A DNA stretch of 33,887 bases from an uncultured beta proteobacterium (GTDB taxonomy: Bacteria > Pseudomonadota > Gammaproteobacteria > Burkholderiales > SG8-41), in contig CAISJL010000050.1 of assembly GCA_903885665.1 (NCBI GenBank), forward strand, positions 1 through 33,887. Reading direction: 5' to 3'. The notes beneath the pieces were generated by a model, which saw only the letters and a list, made by a program, of their open reading frames with translations, ran no database searches and was not told the origin of the DNA. Positions within the stretch are counted from its first letter, which is position 1, and the number at the start of each line of letters is the position of its first letter. A program made the position numbers and the translations under genes. Below are positions 300 to 23,863 of the stretch, piece by piece.

Positions 300-1256
300 T
301 TATTGTGGCTGAATCTTAGCGGCAGCCACAACTTTACGCCACTTTTCAATATTACGACGTACGTAGTCTGCGTATTGCTCGGGAGTGCTGGATATCGGTT
401 CTAATCCGAGGTTAGCATAACGTTCAATTAAATCTGCACTCTGCGACGCCTTAACCACAGCCTGACTCAACTTATTCACAATGTCTTTCGGTGTATGTGC
501 TGGTGCGGCCAGGCCATATGCAGAATCCACGGTAAAATCCGGGTATCCTACCTCAATAAATGTTGGGACATTAGGCAGACCACGAGCTCGCTTAAGGCTA
601 GCGGTAGCAAGCGCACGCAACTTCCCAGCCTTTACCATCGGAATGGTTGGAGGTACAGAAATAAACATTGCATCAACATGTCCACCAATCACATCATTCA
701 TAGCGAGGACAGCCCCTTTATAGGGCACGTGCAACATATCAATATGCTCGACAAGTTTCAGCATCTCACCAGCCAAATGCAGAGACCCTCCAGTGCCAGA
801 TGATCCGTAATTGAGCGTATTTTTTCGCGCTCTAACCATTGCCACAAACTCTTTAATTGTTTTGACTGGCACCACAGGGTTCACCACAAAAGTAATGTCG
901 CTATTAGCGGTCAAACTAATTGGCGAAAAATCACGTATGGTGTCATAGGGTAGGCGTGAAAATGCCACTGGGTTAATCGTAAATGCTGATGTTGTCGCCA
1001 ACAATGTATAGCCGTCAGGTGATGCTTTAGAAACCAAATCACTGGCTATAGACATATTTGCACCAGGTCGATAGTCGACCACAAAGGGTTGGCCCAATAA
1101 TTCCTGTAGCTTCTGAGTTATAGGCCGCACCACCAAATCAGCTGGCCCTCCTGCGGCGAATCCGACCAAAGTGCGGACAGGTCTCACTGGATAGTCTTGG
1201 GCATAAACAGCAAAGCAAAAATTGAATACTAAAATAAAAAATAATTTCAAATACAT
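300..1256 (-). CDS. Bug-family (TctC-like) periplasmic solute-binding protein
   Basis: This is a tripartite-tricarboxylate-type receptor that would bind a small carboxylate in the periplasm. The N-terminus is a signal peptide (MYLKLFFILVFNF... ending AVYAQ/DYP). The mature part carries the usual Bug landmarks: the YPVRPVR start, a GFAAGGPADL loop that contacts ligand carboxylate in solved family members, PDGYTLL, a PYDTIRDFSPI segment and HVPYKGA. The product is about 318 residues, normal for the family. I start it at ATG 1256; a GTG five codons upstream (1271) is possible, but GAAAG lies at better spacing for the ATG. It is the last gene of the minus-strand cluster, 41 bases after the asparaginase-like gene. 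No TctA/TctB partner is nearby, so its transporter, if any, is elsewhere. Family assignment is firm; ligand unknown. Confidence 0.93.
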   Translation of the reverse strand: MYLKLFFILVFNFCFAVYAQDYPVRPVRTLVGFAAGGPADLVVRPITQKLQELLGQPFVVDYRPGANMSIASDLVSKASPDGYTLLATTSAFTINPVAFSRLPYDTIRDFSPISLTANSDITFVVNPVVPVKTIKEFVAMVRARKNTLNYGSSGTGGSLHLAGEMLKLVEHIDMLHVPYKGAVLAMNDVIGGHVDAMFISVPPTIPMVKAGKLRALATASLKRARGLPNVPTFIEVGYPDFTVDSAYGLAAPAHTPKDIVNKLSQAVVKASQSADLIERYANLGLEPISSTPEQYADYVRRNIEKWRKVVAAAKIQPQ

Positions 1257-1297
1257 AATAATAACTTTCACAAAACGATTTCAATGGTTATGGCAAT

Positions 1298-4166: not shown

Positions 4167-5231
4167 TTATTTTCTAAGCTTCACTAAGCGACTCACTGCC
4201 TTAGTGCCACCGCTCCAAGTCGGCAGATAAGCTGCTTTAATACCTACCCCGCCGGCGACCACAATCATGACGTCATCCGGTGATAGCGCTATACGCAACA
4301 AATCGTCAACAGCACTGCCTGTACTCGCATTCACCTGCGCTCGATGCTCACGCACTGCAGTTGATAGCATGGACTTCGACAAGGTCGCACGCTCATAAAT
4401 AGCCTGCTTAGTTGCACGCTTATCACATCCTCCTCTTACAAATGCATTGGCTATCTCAGGTGGCATAATAATTAAGGGCTCTCCGCCACCTAATAAACCA
4501 GAGTTGCCTGCACCACCTGCGATCAACATAGATTGGGCATAGGTTTGTGCAATATCTGCTGCATTCTGACTTATAGAATCGACAATCTCAATTGAACCCG
4601 ATATACCAACAACTGTGACCACGCTGGCTTGCGGATCAAATCCACGATCAATATGCAAAGATGACCAAGGACTATCAATTGCATTTTCAGCAATACAGCA
4701 ACTAAATTTCGCAGACTGACCCAGTGTTGCCATATCTAGCTCTCCTGGAATTGCACCACCAACATTGCGTAACACTAAACTCATAGCGCGACCAATGGTG
4801 GCGTTAGCCCGAAATCCTGGACCTAATACATTACTACCAGCGTTCAATCCTACAGCACCAACGATCGGGCCGTTAACAATAATCATCGGCGCCGCCGATC
4901 CTGTAGTCGTTGATATACCCACTAAATTAAATTCAGGGGCGGCAATTCCCTCAATAGCGGCACCAACTATAGGTAAATACTCAGGCCTACAACCCGCCAT
5001 GACTGCATTTATAGCAACATCCTGCCATGTTACCGACGAAAATAATGGTGGTAGTTCAGCTAACATTGTGTTGGGGTTATATCCATGCATAGCCAACATA
5101 GCATTAACCCGCTCTGCTGTTGGCGGCACCACTGGTAGCCCATCAGTAATCCCTAACGCATGGATCGCATCTTGGGTCGCTTGCCAATAATCCACTTGGT
5201 CTACCTGGGATAGCTCCTGCCAAATATCCAT
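4167..5231 (-). CDS. DGLPVVPPT-motif protein of unknown function
   Basis: A 354-residue protein without signal peptide or obvious membrane segments. I recognise it as a family seen in betaproteobacterial catabolic loci, but no reaction is known to me. Features visible: DGLPVVPPT at residues 30-38, VMAGCRPEYLPIVGAAIEG near 78-97, the Gly-rich stretch APMIIVNGPIVGAVGLN, a GPGFRANATIGRA motif, NVGGAIPGELD, FSCCIAENAIDSPW and a late Gly-rich segment. The many small residues suggest a tight alpha/beta enzyme fold, but no named catalytic motif is present. From memory, unverified, relatives often sit beside UGSC-motif (seleno)proteins and Bug receptors; no UGSC protein is found here. It is 70 bases after a Bug gene and 38 bases before the dioxygenase gene, so it likely acts in the same pathway. 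GAAAG precedes the ATG. Confidence 0.72.
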   Translation of the reverse strand: MDIWQELSQVDQVDYWQATQDAIHALGITDGLPVVPPTAERVNAMLAMHGYNPNTMLAELPPLFSSVTWQDVAINAVMAGCRPEYLPIVGAAIEGIAAPEFNLVGISTTTGSAAPMIIVNGPIVGAVGLNAGSNVLGPGFRANATIGRAMSLVLRNVGGAIPGELDMATLGQSAKFSCCIAENAIDSPWSSLHIDRGFDPQASVVTVVGISGSIEIVDSISQNAADIAQTYAQSMLIAGGAGNSGLLGGGEPLIIMPPEIANAFVRGGCDKRATKQAIYERATLSKSMLSTAVREHRAQVNASTGSAVDDLLRIALSPDDVMIVVAGGVGIKAAYLPTWSGGTKAVSRLVKLRK

Positions 5232-5301: not shown

Positions 5302-6282
5302 TTAATCAATACGAATATTGGCCGTTTTTATAACCTTACGCCATTTCTCAACATCAGCTCTGAGAAATACCTCTAACTCTGAAGCACTACTCGCAATAAT
5401 ATCAACGCCATCTTGTGCCACTTTTTCTTTAAATGCAGCAACTGTTAATCCACGTCTAATTTCTGATTGTAATCGATTAACTATGGCTGTCGATAAACCG
5501 ACTGGCCCTAATAATGCATGCCAAGTCACCACTTCCATACCCTTATAACCGTTCTCATTAAGCGTCTGGATATCTGGAGCAATCACTTGGCGTTGCTCAG
5601 CTGCAACAGCCAGCATGCGTATGCGTCCGGCATCTTTATATGGGATTTGTGCTCTTAAAACATCAAACATGGTTTCGATATGACCACCTAGCAAATCAGT
5701 TCTAGCAGGAGCAGCACCCTTGTATGGTAAGTGTACAAGGTCAATTTTGGCAGTTTGCTTTAATAATTCAATTCCTAAATGACCAGCGCTGCCATTACCT
5801 GCACTACCGTAATTCATTTTACGTGGTTGATTTCGAGCTAGTGCCACAAACTCTTTAATTGTTCTAACAGGTACTGAAGGATGAACCACTAATGCATTAT
5901 ATTGTTTCGCGATCAAGGTAATCGGTGTGAAATCTTTAACAGGATCAAAGGGTGGTTTAGCAAATAGGCTCGGATTAACTGTATGTGTTCCATAACAGAC
6001 ATACAGCGTATAACCATCTGGTGGTGATTTCAGCACGAAATCGGCTGCAATATTACCGCTTGCTCCCGGTCTTGCATCCACCACAATTGGTTGACCCCAT
6101 AATGGGGTTAAATGTTGTCCTATATAACGCGCCATCAATTCACTTCCACCACCAACTGGCGTGCCAATCACAATTCGAATTGGTTTGTTGGGATATTCAG
6201 ATTGCGCATGAACTAAACTTGAATTCATTAACAGTACAGAACCTAAACCCAGTAACATTCGAAGACAATCATTAGATTTCAT
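5302..6282 (-). CDS. Bug-family periplasmic solute-binding protein, first gene of the minus cluster
   Basis: A 326-residue TctC-like receptor. The signal peptide MKSNDCLRMLLGLGSVLLMNSSLVHA is followed by the mature QSEYPNKPIRIVIGTPVGGGSELMARYIGQ. Typical Bug segments follow: PDGYTLYV, PFDPVKDFTPI, NYGSAGNGSAGHLGIELL and LVHLPYKGAAPA. The start is fixed by an excellent purine-rich ribosome site (GGGGGAGGG) three bases before ATG 6282; an in-frame upstream codon at 6345 would add a charged 21-residue stretch that spoils the signal peptide. As the first gene of the cluster it probably supplies the ligand-capture step for the enzymes downstream. Direct repeats about 60-90 bases upstream (6343-6369) could be regulatory. 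Ligand unknown. Confidence 0.94.
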   Translation of the reverse strand: MKSNDCLRMLLGLGSVLLMNSSLVHAQSEYPNKPIRIVIGTPVGGGSELMARYIGQHLTPLWGQPIVVDARPGASGNIAADFVLKSPPDGYTLYVCYGTHTVNPSLFAKPPFDPVKDFTPITLIAKQYNALVVHPSVPVRTIKEFVALARNQPRKMNYGSAGNGSAGHLGIELLKQTAKIDLVHLPYKGAAPARTDLLGGHIETMFDVLRAQIPYKDAGRIRMLAVAAEQRQVIAPDIQTLNENGYKGMEVVTWHALLGPVGLSTAIVNRLQSEIRRGLTVAAFKEKVAQDGVDIIASSASELEVFLRADVEKWRKVIKTANIRID

Positions 6283-6342
6283 AGCCCTCCCCCTTTTTTT
6301 AACATGGTTGCGATAGGAGCAATCCACATCTATACGATTCAC

Positions 6343-6369
6343 CATCTATTGACTCACATCTATTGACTC
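6343..6369. repeat. 13-bp direct repeat upstream of the Bug cluster
   Basis: CATCTATTGACTC occurs exactly at 6343-6355 and 6357-6369, one base apart (14-bp period). A third partial CATCTAT lies at 6327. The position, upstream of the minus-strand cluster start at 6282, would suit an operator, but slippage duplication is equally possible. Confidence 0.7.
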
Positions 6370-8390: not shown

Positions 8391-8460
8391 GATCATACAT
8401 TAGTAATGTTATTTTTAATGGTGTTATCAAAATGACAACTGTTATTTGGTCTGCTCTGTT

Positions 8461-9444
8461 TTGAGCGATTATAAAAAATTATTTATCCTCGTATGGAGCG
8501 CTTGTTGTTGCCCATTCAATTTTTCATGGGCACAACAAACTCCCAAAGAATACCCATCAAAAACAGTCAGAATAATCATTCCAAGCGCACCCAGTGGAGG
8601 CACTGATTTAATCGCGCGATTAAGCGCACAAAAAGTGGGTGAAATTTGGCATCAGCCAGTGATCATTGAAAACGTTAGTGGTGGCGCTACTAGAACAGGG
8701 ATCAATGCCGTCGCGAAATCTAATCCAGATGGGTATACGCTATTATTAACAACGGTAAATTTCGCATTTATCCCTGCCATTTATTCAAAATTAAATTATG
8801 ACCCTGTAATAGATTTTTCACCAATACTAATGCTTGCCAGTACCAACAGCTTGCTGGCTGTACACCCATCACTACCAGTTAGATCAGTTACGCAATTAAT
8901 TGCACTTGCAAAATCAAAACCTAATAGCCTTCACATTGGTTCTGGCGGCAATGGAACAGTGGGCCACCTGGTGAGCGAAATGTTTCAGTCACAAGCTAAA
9001 ATTAAATTAATGCATATCCCTTATAAGGGAACAGGACAGAATACAGTTGCTCTAATTAGCGGTGAGTTGCAAACATTGATTGCAAATCTTCCAGCTCTGC
9101 TCCCCTACGTGCGTAGCAATCGAGTTAGGGCCTTAGCGGTTACAAGTATGACTCGCGCTAGAGCTCTACCTAAATTGCCAACCATGGCAGAGTCCGGATT
9201 GCCAGACTATGAATATAATGGCTGGTATGGCTTATGGGCACCGAGTAAAACAGCATCGTCAATCACCCAAAAAATAAACGAGGACTTTAATAAAGCATTA
9301 ATGGATCAAAGCATACATGAAAAATTTTTAGCATTGGATATTGATGTTACAGGCGGCACCTCAGATTTTTTTGCGCAGCATATTACAAAAGAACTAAAAA
9401 AATGGAATATTGTTGCAAAACAAGCGCAGATTAAAATTGAGTAA
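8461..9444 (+). CDS. Bug-family periplasmic solute-binding protein (TTG start)
   Basis: A TctC-like receptor of about 327 residues. After an N-terminal signal peptide (SDYKKLFILVWSACCCPFNFSWAQ) the mature chain shows EYPSKTVRIIIPSAPSGGTDLIARL, PDGYTLLL, NYDPVIDFSPI, HIGSGGNGTVGHLVSEMF and HIPYKGTG, all standard. There is no in-frame ATG: the frame is closed by TAA at 8416 and the only candidates are TTG 8446 and TTG 8461. I prefer 8461 because it gives a compact signal peptide with early lysines; neither has a clear ribosome site, so translation may depend on coupling or be weak. It lies 70 bases after the TPP enzyme gene in the same direction and probably shares its transcript. It meets a convergent Bug gene at 9479. 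Confidence 0.9.
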   Translation: MSDYKKLFILVWSACCCPFNFSWAQQTPKEYPSKTVRIIIPSAPSGGTDLIARLSAQKVGEIWHQPVIIENVSGGATRTGINAVAKSNPDGYTLLLTTVNFAFIPAIYSKLNYDPVIDFSPILMLASTNSLLAVHPSLPVRSVTQLIALAKSKPNSLHIGSGGNGTVGHLVSEMFQSQAKIKLMHIPYKGTGQNTVALISGELQTLIANLPALLPYVRSNRVRALAVTSMTRARALPKLPTMAESGLPDYEYNGWYGLWAPSKTASSITQKINEDFNKALMDQSIHEKFLALDIDVTGGTSDFFAQHITKELKKWNIVAKQAQIKIE

Positions 9445-9478: not shown

Positions 9479-10438
9479 CTAGTCAGCTTTTATACCATTC
9501 TCTTTTATCAGTTTTGCTAGCTTTGCAATATCTGTTCTGACCGTTACCGCTAAATCTTCGGGTGTACTCGCTACCACTTCGCTGCCTGCATTAAAAAACT
9601 TCTGCTTAATCTCTGCTTTATTAATAAATCGGGATATTTCGGAATGAATTTGCTGAATCAAATTAGACGGCAATTTAGCAGGTCCAAAGACTCCAAATGT
9701 AGCAACTGACTCATAACCAGGTAGCCCAGCTGCTGCGATTGTGGGTAACTGGGGTGCTAATGCTGAAGGCTGCGCACTAGTGACCGCTAAACCGCGTAGC
9801 TTTCCGGATTGTACAAATGGCGCAACAGTTGCAGCGTTATAAAACATAACATGCACTCGACCAGAAATTAAATCAGTAACCGCTTGCGATGGGTTTTTAT
9901 AATTAACTCTGACAATATTTACACCTGCCATCGATTTAAATAACTCACCAGAGAGATGATTTGAAGAGCCGGCAGCACCTGAACCATAATTCAAAGCGCC
10001 TGGCTTTGTACGCGCTAATACAATTAACTCTTTAACAGTCTTTACCGGCAATGACGGATGAACTGCTAACAAGTTGGGGGACATCACGGCCAATGTGATG
10101 GGTGAAAAGTCTCGTTGTGGATCATAGGGAACGCCTGGTTGTAACTGCGGAGATAGCCACATTGTTGACGCTGAAAGTAGCCATGTGTAACCGTCTGGCA
10201 GTGATTTAGCCACAATATCCGCAGGAATTACACCTACCGGTCGATTATCAACAACCAGCTGTTGGCCAAAAGTTGCAGCTAACCCCTGGGCAATTAATCG
10301 TGCAGCAAAATCACCTCCACCACCAGAGCCGGGCACTAATATTCGTATTGTCCTACTAGGAAACGCATCAGCACTAAAAGCATCTACGTGAAAAATTAAG
10401 AACAATATCAAGAAAAAAGTTCGCGCAAAATGATTCAA
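9479..10438 (-). CDS. Bug-family periplasmic solute-binding protein
   Basis: A 319-residue receptor with signal peptide (MNHFARTFFLILFLIFHVDAFSA) and Bug landmarks: FPSRTIRILVPGSGGGGDFAARLIAQ, PDGYTWLL, PYDPQRDFSPI, NYGSGAAGSSNHLSGELF and VNYKNPSQA. The usual HVPYKG motif is altered to RVNYKNP, and the ligand loop is unusually Gly-rich (GSGGGGD), so the ligand may differ from that of its four relatives here. The start is TTG 10438, supported by AAAGGA eight bases upstream. It follows the CoA-transferase gene by 63 bases on the same strand, suggesting that the receptor supplies the acid that is then activated to a CoA ester. Confidence 0.92.
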   Translation of the reverse strand: MNHFARTFFLILFLIFHVDAFSADAFPSRTIRILVPGSGGGGDFAARLIAQGLAATFGQQLVVDNRPVGVIPADIVAKSLPDGYTWLLSASTMWLSPQLQPGVPYDPQRDFSPITLAVMSPNLLAVHPSLPVKTVKELIVLARTKPGALNYGSGAAGSSNHLSGELFKSMAGVNIVRVNYKNPSQAVTDLISGRVHVMFYNAATVAPFVQSGKLRGLAVTSAQPSALAPQLPTIAAAGLPGYESVATFGVFGPAKLPSNLIQQIHSEISRFINKAEIKQKFFNAGSEVVASTPEDLAVTVRTDIAKLAKLIKENGIKAD

Positions 10439-11737: not shown

Positions 11738-12164
11738 CGCAAGCGCTCCTTTAGTATTTGTTTAAAAAACATTAACAACCATAATGACAACTTGTAGCTG
11801 TTTTTTCAACTAGATCAGATATATGCAAATTGATCATAGGGACTGCATACTCTAGATACATTGATTCAGCTAATTTATTTATAATTGATGCTGAATTTTG
11901 CCACAGCTATACAATTTACAGTCTTTTGCTTACACAATCTGGGTTCATAGCCAATTCTTTATCTCTTTATCATATAGCGGACTGCAAAATTCTGCCCGAG
12001 CTATTAATAACTAGACTCAGATCCCACAAAGCGATTAACCTGTGAAAGATTAACCCTTGAAATACGCAATTAATCCGCATTAATCCTAAAAATAATAAGT
12101 GGGATTGCACTTATTAAAAAAGCAATCAAAAAACTATTTGTACAACATGATCCAAGGAGCGGGT
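11738..12164. other. 427-bp AT-rich divergent intergenic region
   Basis: This region separates the CoA-transferase gene (minus) from a Bug gene (plus), so it must hold both promoters. I see no convincing gene. Short direct repeats are present: GATTAACC at 12033-12040 and 12048-12055 (15-bp period) and TTAATCC at 12070-12076 and 12080-12086 (10-bp period). On the minus strand a TTGTCA with a TTTTAA 17 bases on, upstream of 11737, is a weak promoter candidate. Confidence 0.6.
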
Positions 12165-13247
12165 ATGCCATTCACATTTCCACCTTTCACGCAGCATGGA
12201 CCTGGAAAAAAATATTTTTTTGCATTATTCATTGAGCAGCAAACGAGCAGCTATTCTAAACCCCATACCTACTGTTACATTGCAGCCTTAGTATCAATAT
12301 CAGCACTATTGATTGCCAGTTTATTTTCACAATCCAGCATTGCCCAAAATTACCCAATGCGTAACATTACCTTGGTCATACCCTCAGTCGTTGGCGGTCC
12401 AACAGATTTAGTCGGTCGTGCAGTTGCTCAAATGTTGATTGATACCATAGGTAAGAATGTGACCGTTGATAACCGCGCAGGTGCTGGAAATACTCTAGGC
12501 ACTGAATATACTGCGCGCGCCAAACCCGATGGCTATACATTGATGATTGGCAGTCCCAGCTCTCACTCCATAGCCCCCGCAATAAATCCAAAGCTCTCTT
12601 ATGATCCTCTGAAAGATTTCACACCGATCACGCTATTAGCCACCGCCCCGTTATTATTGGTTGCACATCCAACACTACCCATTCGAAATGTTAAAGAACT
12701 AATTGCGCTTGCCAAGTCAAAACCTAATCAATTAAATTTCGGAACTGGTGGCAGTGGCACTACTGGCCACTTGACTGCTGAATATTTCAAATTAGCCACT
12801 GGCATTAAAGCAGTCCATATTCCTTATCGTGGCGTAGCACCTGCAACAGTTGATCTACTATCCGGTCAACTTCAATACATGTTCCACATTTTAAATTTAG
12901 GTGCAGTTCATGTGAATGCAAAGCAATTACGAGGGCTTGCCATTACTGGACGTAATCGCTCAAAATTAGTCCCCGAAGTGCCTACCATGGTTGAAGCTGG
13001 AGTCGCTAATTTTGAGGTATACACTTGGTATGGCGTGCTCGGTCCACAAGGTATTAGCAAAGAGATCACCGAAAAACTGCATACCGCAATATCTTCTGCA
13101 CTGCTGTTACCAGAGCATCAAAAACGTTTTGAGCAACAAGGATTAGATGTTGCATCTGCAAAAACTGATGAGTTTGCTGTATTAATGCGGGATGAAACCA
13201 TCCGCTGGGCCAAAGTAGTTAAAGCATCTGGTGCAAAAATTGACTAA
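12165..13247 (+). CDS. Bug-family periplasmic solute-binding protein
   Basis: A TctC-like receptor of 360 residues. The start is decided by AAGGAG at 12154-12159, five bases before ATG 12165; a GTG at 12099 is in frame but has no ribosome site. The N-terminus is unusually long: about 35 mostly hydrophilic residues precede the hydrophobic core YIAALVSISALLIASLF, with likely cleavage at SSIAQ/NYP. The mature part shows NYPMRNITLVIPSVVGGPTDLVGRA, PDGYTLMI, SYDPLKDFTPI, NFGTGGSGTTGHLTAEYF and HIPYRGVAPA. It precedes the enolase-superfamily gene by 89 bases on the same strand and probably captures that enzyme's substrate or a precursor. Confidence 0.93.
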   Translation: MPFTFPPFTQHGPGKKYFFALFIEQQTSSYSKPHTYCYIAALVSISALLIASLFSQSSIAQNYPMRNITLVIPSVVGGPTDLVGRAVAQMLIDTIGKNVTVDNRAGAGNTLGTEYTARAKPDGYTLMIGSPSSHSIAPAINPKLSYDPLKDFTPITLLATAPLLLVAHPTLPIRNVKELIALAKSKPNQLNFGTGGSGTTGHLTAEYFKLATGIKAVHIPYRGVAPATVDLLSGQLQYMFHILNLGAVHVNAKQLRGLAITGRNRSKLVPEVPTMVEAGVANFEVYTWYGVLGPQGISKEITEKLHTAISSALLLPEHQKRFEQQGLDVASAKTDEFAVLMRDETIRWAKVVKASGAKID

Positions 13248-21529: not shown

Positions 21530-22591
21530 CTATACAACAATTTCGACCTTATTCATACCAGCCACCAGGCTACCAATTACTGCGGCATCAAAAAACCCTT
21601 GGGACTTAAATATTTCCAAAACTGTATCAACTGCTGATGGCGCGCAACTAACCAGCAAACCACCACTGGTCTGAGGATCGGTACAAATTCGCCGCAGCAG
21701 CGTAGTATCGCCCTGAGGTAACACCACATCCTGACCGTAACTTAACCAATTACGCTCAGAAGCCCCAGTGACAAATCCAGCCGCCAATAGAGGACGCGCT
21801 TCTGACAGAATAGGGATTTGTGATTCGTGTAGTTTGGCATTCAAGCCAGAGCCTCTACAAATCTCTAATAAATGCCCAAGCAGACCAAAACCAGTTACAT
21901 CCGTGAGGGCATGTACGCCATCTAACTCTGCTAAAGCAACTCCAGGTGTATTTAACTGCGTCGAGACCGCTAACATTTGTTGATAGGCCTTGTTAGACAG
22001 CTCATTTTTCTTAATTGCAGCGCTCATAATACCCACACCAAGACCCTTACCCAGTATCAATACGTCACCATCCTGGGCTCGATCATTACGTTTAACCCGA
22101 TCGGGGTGGACTAATCCGAGCACAACCAATCCATAGATCGGCTCAGGGGAGTCGATCGAGTGCCCGCCAGCAATCGGTATGTTGATCGATTCGCAGACTG
22201 ACTGACCACCCATAGTAATGCGTTGTGCCACACTCATTGGCATCTTACCTACAGGGATACCGAGAAGTGCTAAGGCCATAAATGGTTTTCCACCCATTGC
22301 ATATACATCAGAAATGGCATTGGTGGCTGCAATTCTTCCGAAATCATAGGGATCATCAACAATCGGCATAAAAAAATCCGTTGTTGCAACAATCGCCTGT
22401 GTATCGTTAATACGATATACGGCAGCATCATCATTATTTGCAGAACCAACCAGAAGATTAGCAAATGGCTGGGCTGCTGCCGATTGAGATAATATTTCGC
22501 TCAGCAACGCTGGCGTCAGTTTACAGCCTCACCCACCACCGTGAGAAAACTGGGTTAACCGCAAGTGGGGCTGTTCAATTTGTTCACTCAT
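21530..22591 (-). CDS. selD: selenide, water dikinase SelD, a UGA-encoded selenoprotein
   Basis: SelD makes selenophosphate from selenide and ATP, the Se donor for tRNA-Sec and for 2-selenouridine in tRNA. The conceptual product is 353 residues with selenocysteine at residue 21: ATG 22591 opens MSEQIEQPHLRLTQFSHGGG, then UGA at 22531-22529, then GCKLTPALLS and the full ATP-binding body (NDDAAVYRI, ATTDFFMPIVDDPYDFGRIAA, GGHSIDSPEP, ALTDVTGFGLLGH, TDPQTSGGLL). HGGG-U-GCK is the known active-site motif, with Sec where E. coli SelD has Cys17. Without readthrough the protein would lack its catalytic loop. A SECIS-like hairpin follows the UGA. Divergent from mnmH with 111 bases between starts. Ribosome site is weak (TAGGGA, distant). 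Confidence 0.95.
22498..22515 (-). promoter_or_regulatory. bacterial SECIS-like hairpin in selD
   Basis: Read on the minus strand, 13 bases after the selD UGA, CGC-CAGC pairs with GCUG-(A)-GCG around a GUU loop: seven base pairs with one bulged A. The loop begins 20 bases after the UGA. A short stem with a G/U-containing loop at this distance fits the SelB-binding bSECIS elements of known bacterial selenoprotein genes. Found by eye; no folding was run. Confidence 0.7.
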
Positions 22592-22702: not shown

Positions 22703-23863
22703 ATGGCTGAATTAACGACAAACATACAAACATCTAGCACGTCACAAGATGATCTGGTGCGGCATGTGCAACAAAAAGAGGCACACGAAGAGCGTGCCGT
22801 GAAAATGGTTACCGTATCACAACGCCATGAGTTTGACGAGATTATTGATGTTCGCTCGGAGGATGAGTTTGCACAAGATCACCTCCCAGGCGCTGTAAAC
22901 TTTCCTGTATTAAACAATGCCGAACGTAGCAAAGTCGGCACCATTTATACTCAAGTCTCTGCATTTGAAGCAAAAAAAATTGGTGCGGCCTTGATCAGCG
23001 CCAATATTTCACGCCACCTCAATGAGCACCTCAATCAACGCCCCAGGCAATGGCGCCCTCTGATTTATTGCTGGCGTGGCGGTGGCCGTAGCGCAGCATT
23101 TGCCCACGTGCTCGGTCAGATCGGCTGGAGAACCGGTCGAATGGCAGGTGGCTATAAAGCCTATCGTCAACTGGTCATCAACGAACTCTCAACGCTACCT
23201 AGCCAACTGACATGGCAAGTCGTCTGCGGCATGACTGGCACTGGCAAGAGCCGATTACTCCACACGCTTCACCAACAAGGCGCTCAAATACTTGATCTAG
23301 AAGCACTCGCATCACACCGCGGTTCTGTTCTGGGCCATCTACCAAGCACGCCACAACCCTCACAAAAACTGTTTGAAAGCATGGTGTGGGATGCACTCCA
23401 TCAACTCTCGCCCGATCAACCTGTTTTCGTTGAGTCGGAAAGTAAAAAAGTAGGCAATCTGCGAGTGCCTGAATTTCTAATTGAAGCCATGCGTGCCAGT
23501 ACATGCATCATTGTCAATGCCCCAATACCCGTTCGCGTCAAATTGTTACAAGAAGATTACGCGCACTTTATCTCCGAACCTGATCGCCTGAATCGACAAC
23601 TTGATTGCTTACGTGCTCTACATGGCCATCAAACAATTACCAAATGGCAGACGCTTGCAAATTCTGGTCAATGGGCAACGTTAGTTGAAGAGTTATTACT
23701 CAAACACTACGACCCCGCTTATTCCAAAGCTATTGACCAAAACTTCCCGAGACTACCTTTAGCCAAAGCGTTCACACTCAACAGCAATACAGAGACGGCA
23801 CTTCAAGAGTTAGCAACCACGATTTTGACACACATTAAAAATGATTCCCGATCAAATACTTAG
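22703..23863 (+). CDS. mnmH: tRNA 2-selenouridine synthase MnmH (SelU)
   Basis: This enzyme replaces sulfur by selenium at the wobble 2-thiouridine of Lys, Glu and Gln tRNAs, via a geranylated intermediate, using selenophosphate. The N-terminal rhodanese domain includes FDEIIDVRSEDEFAQDHLPGAVN and the active loop YCWRGGGRS with Cys123. The C-terminal P-loop domain has GMTGTGKS (176-183) and LDLEALASHRGSVLG. The protein reads 386 residues, about 30 longer at the N-terminus than usual; ATG 22805 (residue 35) would give a canonical start (MVTVSQRHEFDEIIDVR), so the true start is unsure. It faces selD, its selenophosphate supplier, across a divergent promoter region. Confidence 0.95.
   Translation: MAELTTNIQTSSTSQDDLVRHVQQKEAHEERAVKMVTVSQRHEFDEIIDVRSEDEFAQDHLPGAVNFPVLNNAERSKVGTIYTQVSAFEAKKIGAALISANISRHLNEHLNQRPRQWRPLIYCWRGGGRSAAFAHVLGQIGWRTGRMAGGYKAYRQLVINELSTLPSQLTWQVVCGMTGTGKSRLLHTLHQQGAQILDLEALASHRGSVLGHLPSTPQPSQKLFESMVWDALHQLSPDQPVFVESESKKVGNLRVPEFLIEAMRASTCIIVNAPIPVRVKLLQEDYAHFISEPDRLNRQLDCLRALHGHQTITKWQTLANSGQWATLVEELLLKHYDPAYSKAIDQNFPRLPLAKAFTLNSNTETALQELATTILTHIKNDSRSNT

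Follow-up and report, generated by a model that had tools for sequence, protein, structure and literature searches.

The window, the whole stretch of DNA analyzed here (33,887 nt), is contig C50 of a 3.03-Mb draft genome in 187 contigs, for which the tools gave 99.97% completeness and 3.09% contamination. On its minus strand lies a gene for selenide, water dikinase (SelD) with a UGA inside its reading frame. The locus holds the following features:

21530–22591, minus strand: selD, selenide water dikinase, 353 aa, proposed selenocysteine (Sec) at residue 21, start ATG at 22591, stop at 21532–21530
22529–22531, minus strand: in-frame UGA, proposed Sec codon, opposite the leading Cys of SHGAGCGCK in E. 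coli SelD (3u0o_A)
22498–22515, minus strand: bSECIS-type hairpin, CGC-CAGC / GUU loop / GCUG-(A)-GCG, seven base pairs and a bulged A, from fold and codon constraint
21530–22507, minus strand: TTG open reading frame, 325 aa, from the mechanical ORF list, without the Sec/Cys-Lys loop

Based on the translation of 22591–21530 (minus strand) with TGA read as U, the product has 353 aa, a single recoded codon, and a normal stop at its end. Its N-terminus reads MSEQIEQPHLRLTQFSHGGGUGCKLTPALL...; in the DNA, MSEQIEQPHLRLTQFSHGGG is followed by the UGA and by GCKLTPALL..., and the frame stays open from 22591 until the stop at 21532–21530. This agrees with a sequence-only reading made before the present analysis, which had placed ATG 22591, HGGG, the UGA (22531–22529), GCK, and an intact SelD body in one frame. 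The protein is a full-length SelD by family scores (NCBIfam NF002098, 510.8 bits against a cut-off of 299; TIGR00476, 416.9 bits against 125), and the Pfam domains AIRS and AIRS_C are present. The match to E. coli SelD (3u0o) has E 6e-97 over residues 8–344, and HGGGUGCK aligns with HGAGCGCK of 3u0o_A; E. coli has Cys in place of Sec and needs no SECIS. As the criterion for the N-terminal loop, we took Cys or Sec followed by G-C-K. A weak ribosome-site-like AGGGA lies 13 nt upstream of the ATG. For this gene, the mechanical ORF list contains solely the 325-aa ORF from TTG 22507, in which the active-site loop is missing, and the earlier statement that the UGA hides the 5′ end of selD therefore holds. 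Since this ORF lacks the Sec/Cys-Lys loop, it is probably an artifact of the UGA. Mechanical ORF calling thus loses SelD's catalytic end, and the UGSC genes described below would be truncated in the same way.

To place the codon among relatives, SelD 5′ ends were read at 143 of 148 loci (L102, L185, L251, and L252 were unread, and L187 is an FdhA locus), giving 51 TGA, 82 TGC, and 10 TGT. A pattern preferring Cys or stop was used for 18 reads and a pattern without such preference for the other 125. The read set includes some duplicates, and the distinct UGA-selD sequences number 49. In all 49, the upstream frame runs open for 18 codons or more, and H and GGG precede the UGA; an in-frame ATG lies no more than 30 codons upstream in 48, and in the 12 inspected it lies 20 codons before the UGA. 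In a search of 61 genomes, the best SelD carried one TGA in 35 of the 37 genomes of the window's family; the exceptions are G003, with no SelD match, and G016, with the 3′ part only. The same search found no full-length SelD without TGA in this family. The sequence-only reading had named a Cys codon at this site as evidence against it; every selD 5′ end read in the family retains the UGA. Outside the family, UGA-SelD occurs in G041 and G048, from two other families of the order. When 399 genomes of the order were searched, 264 had a SelD match at E 1e-80, and among the matches listed, TGA occurred solely in families f1, f6, and f13. Genome G020 has two UGA-selD copies (L026 on C27 and L188 on C9); it is listed at 6% contamination and may represent two strains.

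These reads bear on an alternative in which the UGA is a sequencing error, or a Cys codon was lost to a nonsense mutation, leaving a pseudogene with a restart at TTG 22507. The 325-aa ORF of the mechanical caller speaks for such a reading. However, the same UGA recurs in 51 of 143 SelD 5′ ends from many assemblies, the downstream frame is intact, the upstream frame is conserved up to the H and GGG, and the shorter protein would miss the catalytic loop. The conservation of the UGA thus largely refutes an error or pseudogene, to which we assign a negligible probability.

The hairpin, CGCCAGCGUUGCUGAGCG (22515–22498), is 18 nt long and is separated from the UGA by 13 nt, and the earlier placement of a SECIS-like hairpin at 22498–22515, 13 bases past the UGA, is thereby confirmed. 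It has a 3-nt GUU loop with G first, 4 bp above the bulged A, 3 bp below it, and 20 nt from UGA to loop; the local 26-nt stretch that contains it folds at −8.6 kcal/mol. The bSECIS limits given in the Fig. 2 legend of PMC13188914 are a loop of 3–9 nt, an upper stem of 4–16 bp, G in the first two loop positions, 16–37 nt from UGA to loop, and a minimum free energy of at most −7.5 kcal/mol. The selD hairpin lies within all limits of that legend. The wider fold that had been proposed as a check, 22480–22535 on the minus strand (56 nt), did not stand out: z was −0.34, and 73 of 200 shuffles folded equally well. Across relatives, 27 distinct Sec sequences have a mean fold of −9.26 kcal/mol and a mean z of −2.02, with 20 below −1.5, whereas 77 distinct Cys orthologues have −5.89 kcal/mol and −0.19, with 14 below −1.5; these rows are related sequences and so are not independent samples. 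An Rfam search returned no SECIS at the gathering threshold, its sole match being a tRNA.

Covariation in the hairpin is weak: 97.4% of cells pair, one cell is changed on both sides, and the covariation score was reached by 19 of 500 shuffles. Therefore, the case for the hairpin rests on frozen synonymous sites. Among 40 full-length Sec genes, 5 of the 243 columns judged are codon-invariant, and all 5 (columns 5, 7, 8, 9, and 10 after the UGA) are inside the hairpin. Counted among rows with the residue in question, the codons are GCG for Ala in 49/49, CTG for Leu in 49/49, AGC for Ser in 44/44, ACG for Thr in 43/43, and TTG for Leu in 41/41. Among the 83 Cys rows, codons differ at these positions, and residues mostly do as well. 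Collectively, because UGA is carried by 51 of 143 SelD 5′ ends and synonymous codon choice is fixed across the hairpin, unlike in the Cys orthologues, the UGA is real on comparative sequence grounds.

A search with the Sec-hairpin model R1 gave the selD hairpin 62.7 bits, a score to be read with R1 having been built from the hairpin's own family. In the window genome, R1 reported selD at E 1.2e-13 and two more sites at E 0.73 and 0.79, both outside any long open frame. The UGSC sites were absent from its hits, so R1 is no test for other SECIS types. Among Cys-selDs, that of G047 (L221, contig C31) scores 33.4 bits (E 8.3e-6) with a codon for Cys, which may reflect homologous coding sequence or a relic of the hairpin; other Cys-selDs (G043, G045, and G050) reach 21–24 bits.

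The sequence-only reading had also expected SelA, SelB, and tRNA-Sec in the host and had treated their absence as decisive against it. All three were found within 6 kb of contig C163 (selA, 557.1 bits; selB, 433.6 bits; tRNA-Sec, 75.6 bits), and ARAGORN also calls a tRNA-SeC on this contig. Its composition raised the question of contamination: the sel stretch has a GC content of 51% against 44% for the window, with a tetranucleotide correlation of 0.63 (0.80 for the neighboring stretch). In a tree built with 30 of 41 SelBs detected, the SelB of the window genome joins 13 of its genus at 100/100. This grouping argues against contamination, and that origin for C163 is not supported. Additionally, one SelD match in the draft genome is over the family cut-off; two weaker matches, of 63 and 27.4 bits, start at profile positions 34 and 84, past the catalytic loop, and the SelD profile search found no Cys-SelD copy in the 187 contigs. 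Among the 37 UGA genomes, selB occurs at E 1e-60 or better in 35 and over the family cut-off in 34; it was not found in G010 (84% complete) or G029 (91%), and G036 is under the cut-off. The best of 11 FdhA matches in the window genome (L143/L187, C187), cut by a contig end, has Cys (CARVCH) at the presumed Sec site, which we placed by assumed correspondence to E. coli FdhF. Among the FdhA matches listed over 61 genomes, none contains a stop codon.

UGA readthrough occurs in bacteria, and the codon might be read without selenium, as Trp via a near-cognate tRNA or as Cys on tRNA-Sec, with the hairpin serving as a general readthrough or pausing element. A small amount of such product could restart SelD synthesis after selenium starvation. 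However, UGA-SelD accompanies selB in 35 of 37 genomes, the hairpin lies within the bSECIS limits, and all 83 non-UGA rows have Cys under a pattern that left the site free and required x-C-K/R after it. We therefore regard selenium-free decoding as very improbable and Sec as the residue presumably inserted.

Divergent from selD, with 111 bp between the two ATGs, lies a gene for a further user of selenophosphate:

22703–23863, plus strand: mnmH (ybbB/selU), tRNA 2-selenouridine synthase, NF008752 495.9 bits (cut-off 266), TIGR03167 367 bits (cut-off 219.75)

A divergent mnmH is present at 32 of 42 UGA-selD loci, and at the other 10 none lies within the flank examined. That these 10 loci mark genomes without mnmH was considered and rejected, as mnmH is over the cut-off in 35 of the 37 family genomes; the exceptions are G012, with no match, and G034, with solely a match at 6.3e-4.

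Searches with the UGSC family (NF041046) gave 11 matches in the window genome, each with one in-frame TGA:

Loci L240–L250, genome G000: UGSC-family matches on contigs C12, C157, C59, C175, C113 (twice), C19, C82, C4, C64, and C167

A single match exceeds the curated 125-bit cut-off; six more score 67–121 bits, and the remaining four score 37–46 bits. The UGSC motif stands at the TGA in 10 of the 11 (UGAC in one), and L246 is cut by a contig end. By eye, an inverted repeat of the GTCGTGGAGTGTCCAC/TGAC-like kind follows the TGA in L240–L244, and a second kind, CCCGCCGTGTTGCGGG, follows it in L248–L250. The family shares its UGSC motif and in-frame UGA with the selenoprotein described from the Global Ocean Sampling (GOS) data, which the available part of PMC2398784 names as the commonest selenoprotein in non-marine GOS samples. 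Here the family is multicopy, with up to 56 matches in a relative (G021), where all 11 among the matches listed carry one TGA. For scale, the largest bacterial selenoproteomes stated in the accessible text of PMC13188914 have 57 and 63 genes. The possibility that SelD is the sole selenoprotein, in a purely self-serving loop, was rejected after the UGSC searches. With 11 UGSC matches carrying in-frame UGA and with mnmH alongside, SelD probably feeds a real selenoproteome and tRNA selenouridine, as judged from gene content.

Furthermore, UGSC genes coincide with UGA-SelD. Among 46 genomes searched, UGSC matches were found in 28 of 28 in which UGA-SelD was seen and in none of 8 whose near SelD contains no stop. 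A Cys codon was seen in five of those eight (G043, G045, G046, G047, and G050); G044, G053, and G054 were classed as stop-free only. G003 and G016 have UGSC matches with the SelD codon not in view. Among 8 genomes without a near SelD, a UGSC match was found in G038 alone, with no stop in it; G038 has selB, mnmH, and this one stop-free match, yet no near SelD was found there. Nearly all UGSC matches listed have one TGA, the exceptions being the G038 row and one row each in G024 and G027. The 46 genomes are related, and the coincidence therefore counts as one or a few events rather than 36.

The window contains no UGA-GSC motif. It does contain a homologue of a gene that neighbors UGSC genes elsewhere, and this homologue stands without a UGSC gene beside it:

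4167–5231, minus strand: 354-aa protein, no Pfam or NCBIfam family at E 0.001, homologue of a UGSC-neighbor gene or domain

By tblastn, this protein matches sequence flanking UGSC genes in relatives at 35–36% (6 of 6 loci), and within its own genome 10 of the 11 UGSC loci hold a gene or fused domain with 29–41% identity to it.

Collectively, we hold it very likely that selD is a selenoprotein gene whose Sec-containing product would supply SelA, the UGSC proteins, and MnmH, with a single Cys-to-Sec origin as the likely history. SelD makes selenophosphate, SelA needs selenophosphate to form Sec-tRNA, and SelB needs the hairpin. SelB charged with Sec-tRNA-Sec would bind the hairpin and insert Sec at residue 21. 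This is the catalytic position, where E. coli SelD and the other betaproteobacterial SelDs read have Cys, and the residue is presumably needed for catalysis. The finished SelD would make selenophosphate, which SelA would turn into Sec-tRNA-Sec for more SelD and for the UGSC selenoproteins, while MnmH would spend selenophosphate on 2-selenouridine in tRNA. That SelD is needed for making SelD, as claimed earlier, follows from the gene content, because the draft genome has no second SelD over the family cut-off. With no Cys-SelD found, the selenium economy would hang on inherited or residual SelD in a positive loop; daughter cells would live on inherited SelD, and after starvation trace readthrough with a different amino acid could set the loop going again. 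The predicted gene set indicates that this loop is not closed on itself, as MnmH and about ten UGSC-type selenoproteins would also draw on selenophosphate. When an enzyme can be made only with the help of its own product, the question arises of how the pathway restarts after selenium loss.

To reveal the origin of the Sec form, we compared three SelD trees, all with the Sec/Cys column masked. On an unrooted tree of 122 rows, the Sec rows lie on one side of a branch with SH-aLRT 93; on an unrooted tree of 65 rows, they do so at 94/86, with a bootstrap that had not settled. A remote SelD (L253) was rejected as root for its long branch, and E. coli was taken instead. On the resulting tree of 56 rows, the Sec clade (99/85) lies inside Cys lineages, with the fork at 96/87. 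Some UGA rows (e.g., L264, L265, and L267) were left out of the trees, and all those included fell in the Sec clade. The E. coli branch is long (4.35), so this rooting is moderate and not final. As the Sec clade is nested in Cys lineages, a single Cys-to-Sec change is the simplest account, and the trees suggest that an ancestor shared by the three related families most likely acquired the Sec form from Cys in one step. In order-wide searches, and in a further search limited to the best 80 of 591 matches, the nearest non-Sec SelDs seen are betaproteobacterial Cys forms with 60–66% identity; thus, no foreign donor is seen among them.

Conversely, Sec-SelD could be ancestral or horizontally acquired, and the other betaproteobacterial Cys forms secondary, with no Cys-to-Sec conversion. 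Zhang 2006, as far as the available text of PMC1794560 goes, recorded changes of SelD from Sec to Cys and none from Cys to Sec, and the accessible part of the 2026 review PMC13188914 names Sec-to-Cys cases for SelD. Moreover, the root depends on one long outgroup while the two other trees are unrooted, and the R1 score of the G047 Cys-selD could be that of a relic. Against an ancestral Sec, each of the three trees has a branch that separates the Sec rows from the others, these rows fall inside Cys lineages with the E. coli root, and the other Cys-selDs stay at 21–24 bits with the hairpin model; the lack of a foreign donor among the nearest matches speaks against a horizontal origin. We consider an ancestral or acquired Sec-SelD unlikely and retain the single conversion from Cys.

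Sec-SelD is already known as a kind; the lineage, the probable conversion, and the coincidence with UGSC genes are new. The gene shares with known Sec-SelD/SPS2 (TIGR00476) the enzyme, the Sec position, and the UGA with a downstream hairpin. In the accessible text of PMC4561486, Sec is reported for 19% of the SelD genes detected in a 223-genome reference set, always at this site, in line with the earlier remark that Sec-SelD occurs in several bacteria. The same part of that paper describes a Pasteurellales Sec-SelD, likewise amid Cys-SelDs of one class, which its authors read as codon conversion and as the first clearly documented case. Pasteurellales belong to the Gammaproteobacteria, whereas the Sec form here spans three families within one betaproteobacterial order, which share a frozen hairpin and, in those genomes that were searched, UGSC-family genes. 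For betaproteobacteria, the available part of PMC1794560 gives one selenoprotein family (Table 2) and names FdhA as the sole selenoprotein; in contrast, it is SelD that would carry Sec here, and Cys occupies the presumed site in the top FdhA match. We found no published report of a betaproteobacterial Sec-SelD in a search beyond which lay most subscription papers, preprints, and supplements, and none appears in the accessible portions of PMC1794560, PMC4561486, PMC13188914, PMC5029168, PMC12013277, and PMC2398784. The clade therefore offers a case with no Cys backup found, an apparently single Sec origin, near Cys relatives, and a second large Sec gene family. Natural Cys/Sec SelD pairs at about 60–66% identity would make the cost and effect of the change testable in E. 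coli.

A broader scenario can be offered tentatively, and we think it somewhat less probable than its opposite. In the ancestor of the three families, SelD would have changed from Cys to Sec, a new SECIS would have remodeled codons and residues (IAP-G/A-VL to LTP-A-LL), and this would have proceeded in step with the UGSC expansion (11 matches here and 56 in one relative), so that SelD became a gate with a self-reinforcing, switch-like selenophosphate supply. The regulatory, switch-like effect of the loop is itself speculation. If true, the presence of selenium would commit cells to its use, and its absence would make them close the pathway.

Elsewhere in the window, look-alikes of Bug/TctC-type solute-binding proteins were seen by eye at 300–1271 (minus), 5302–6345 (minus), 8446–9444 (plus), 9479–10438 (minus), and 12099–13247 (plus).
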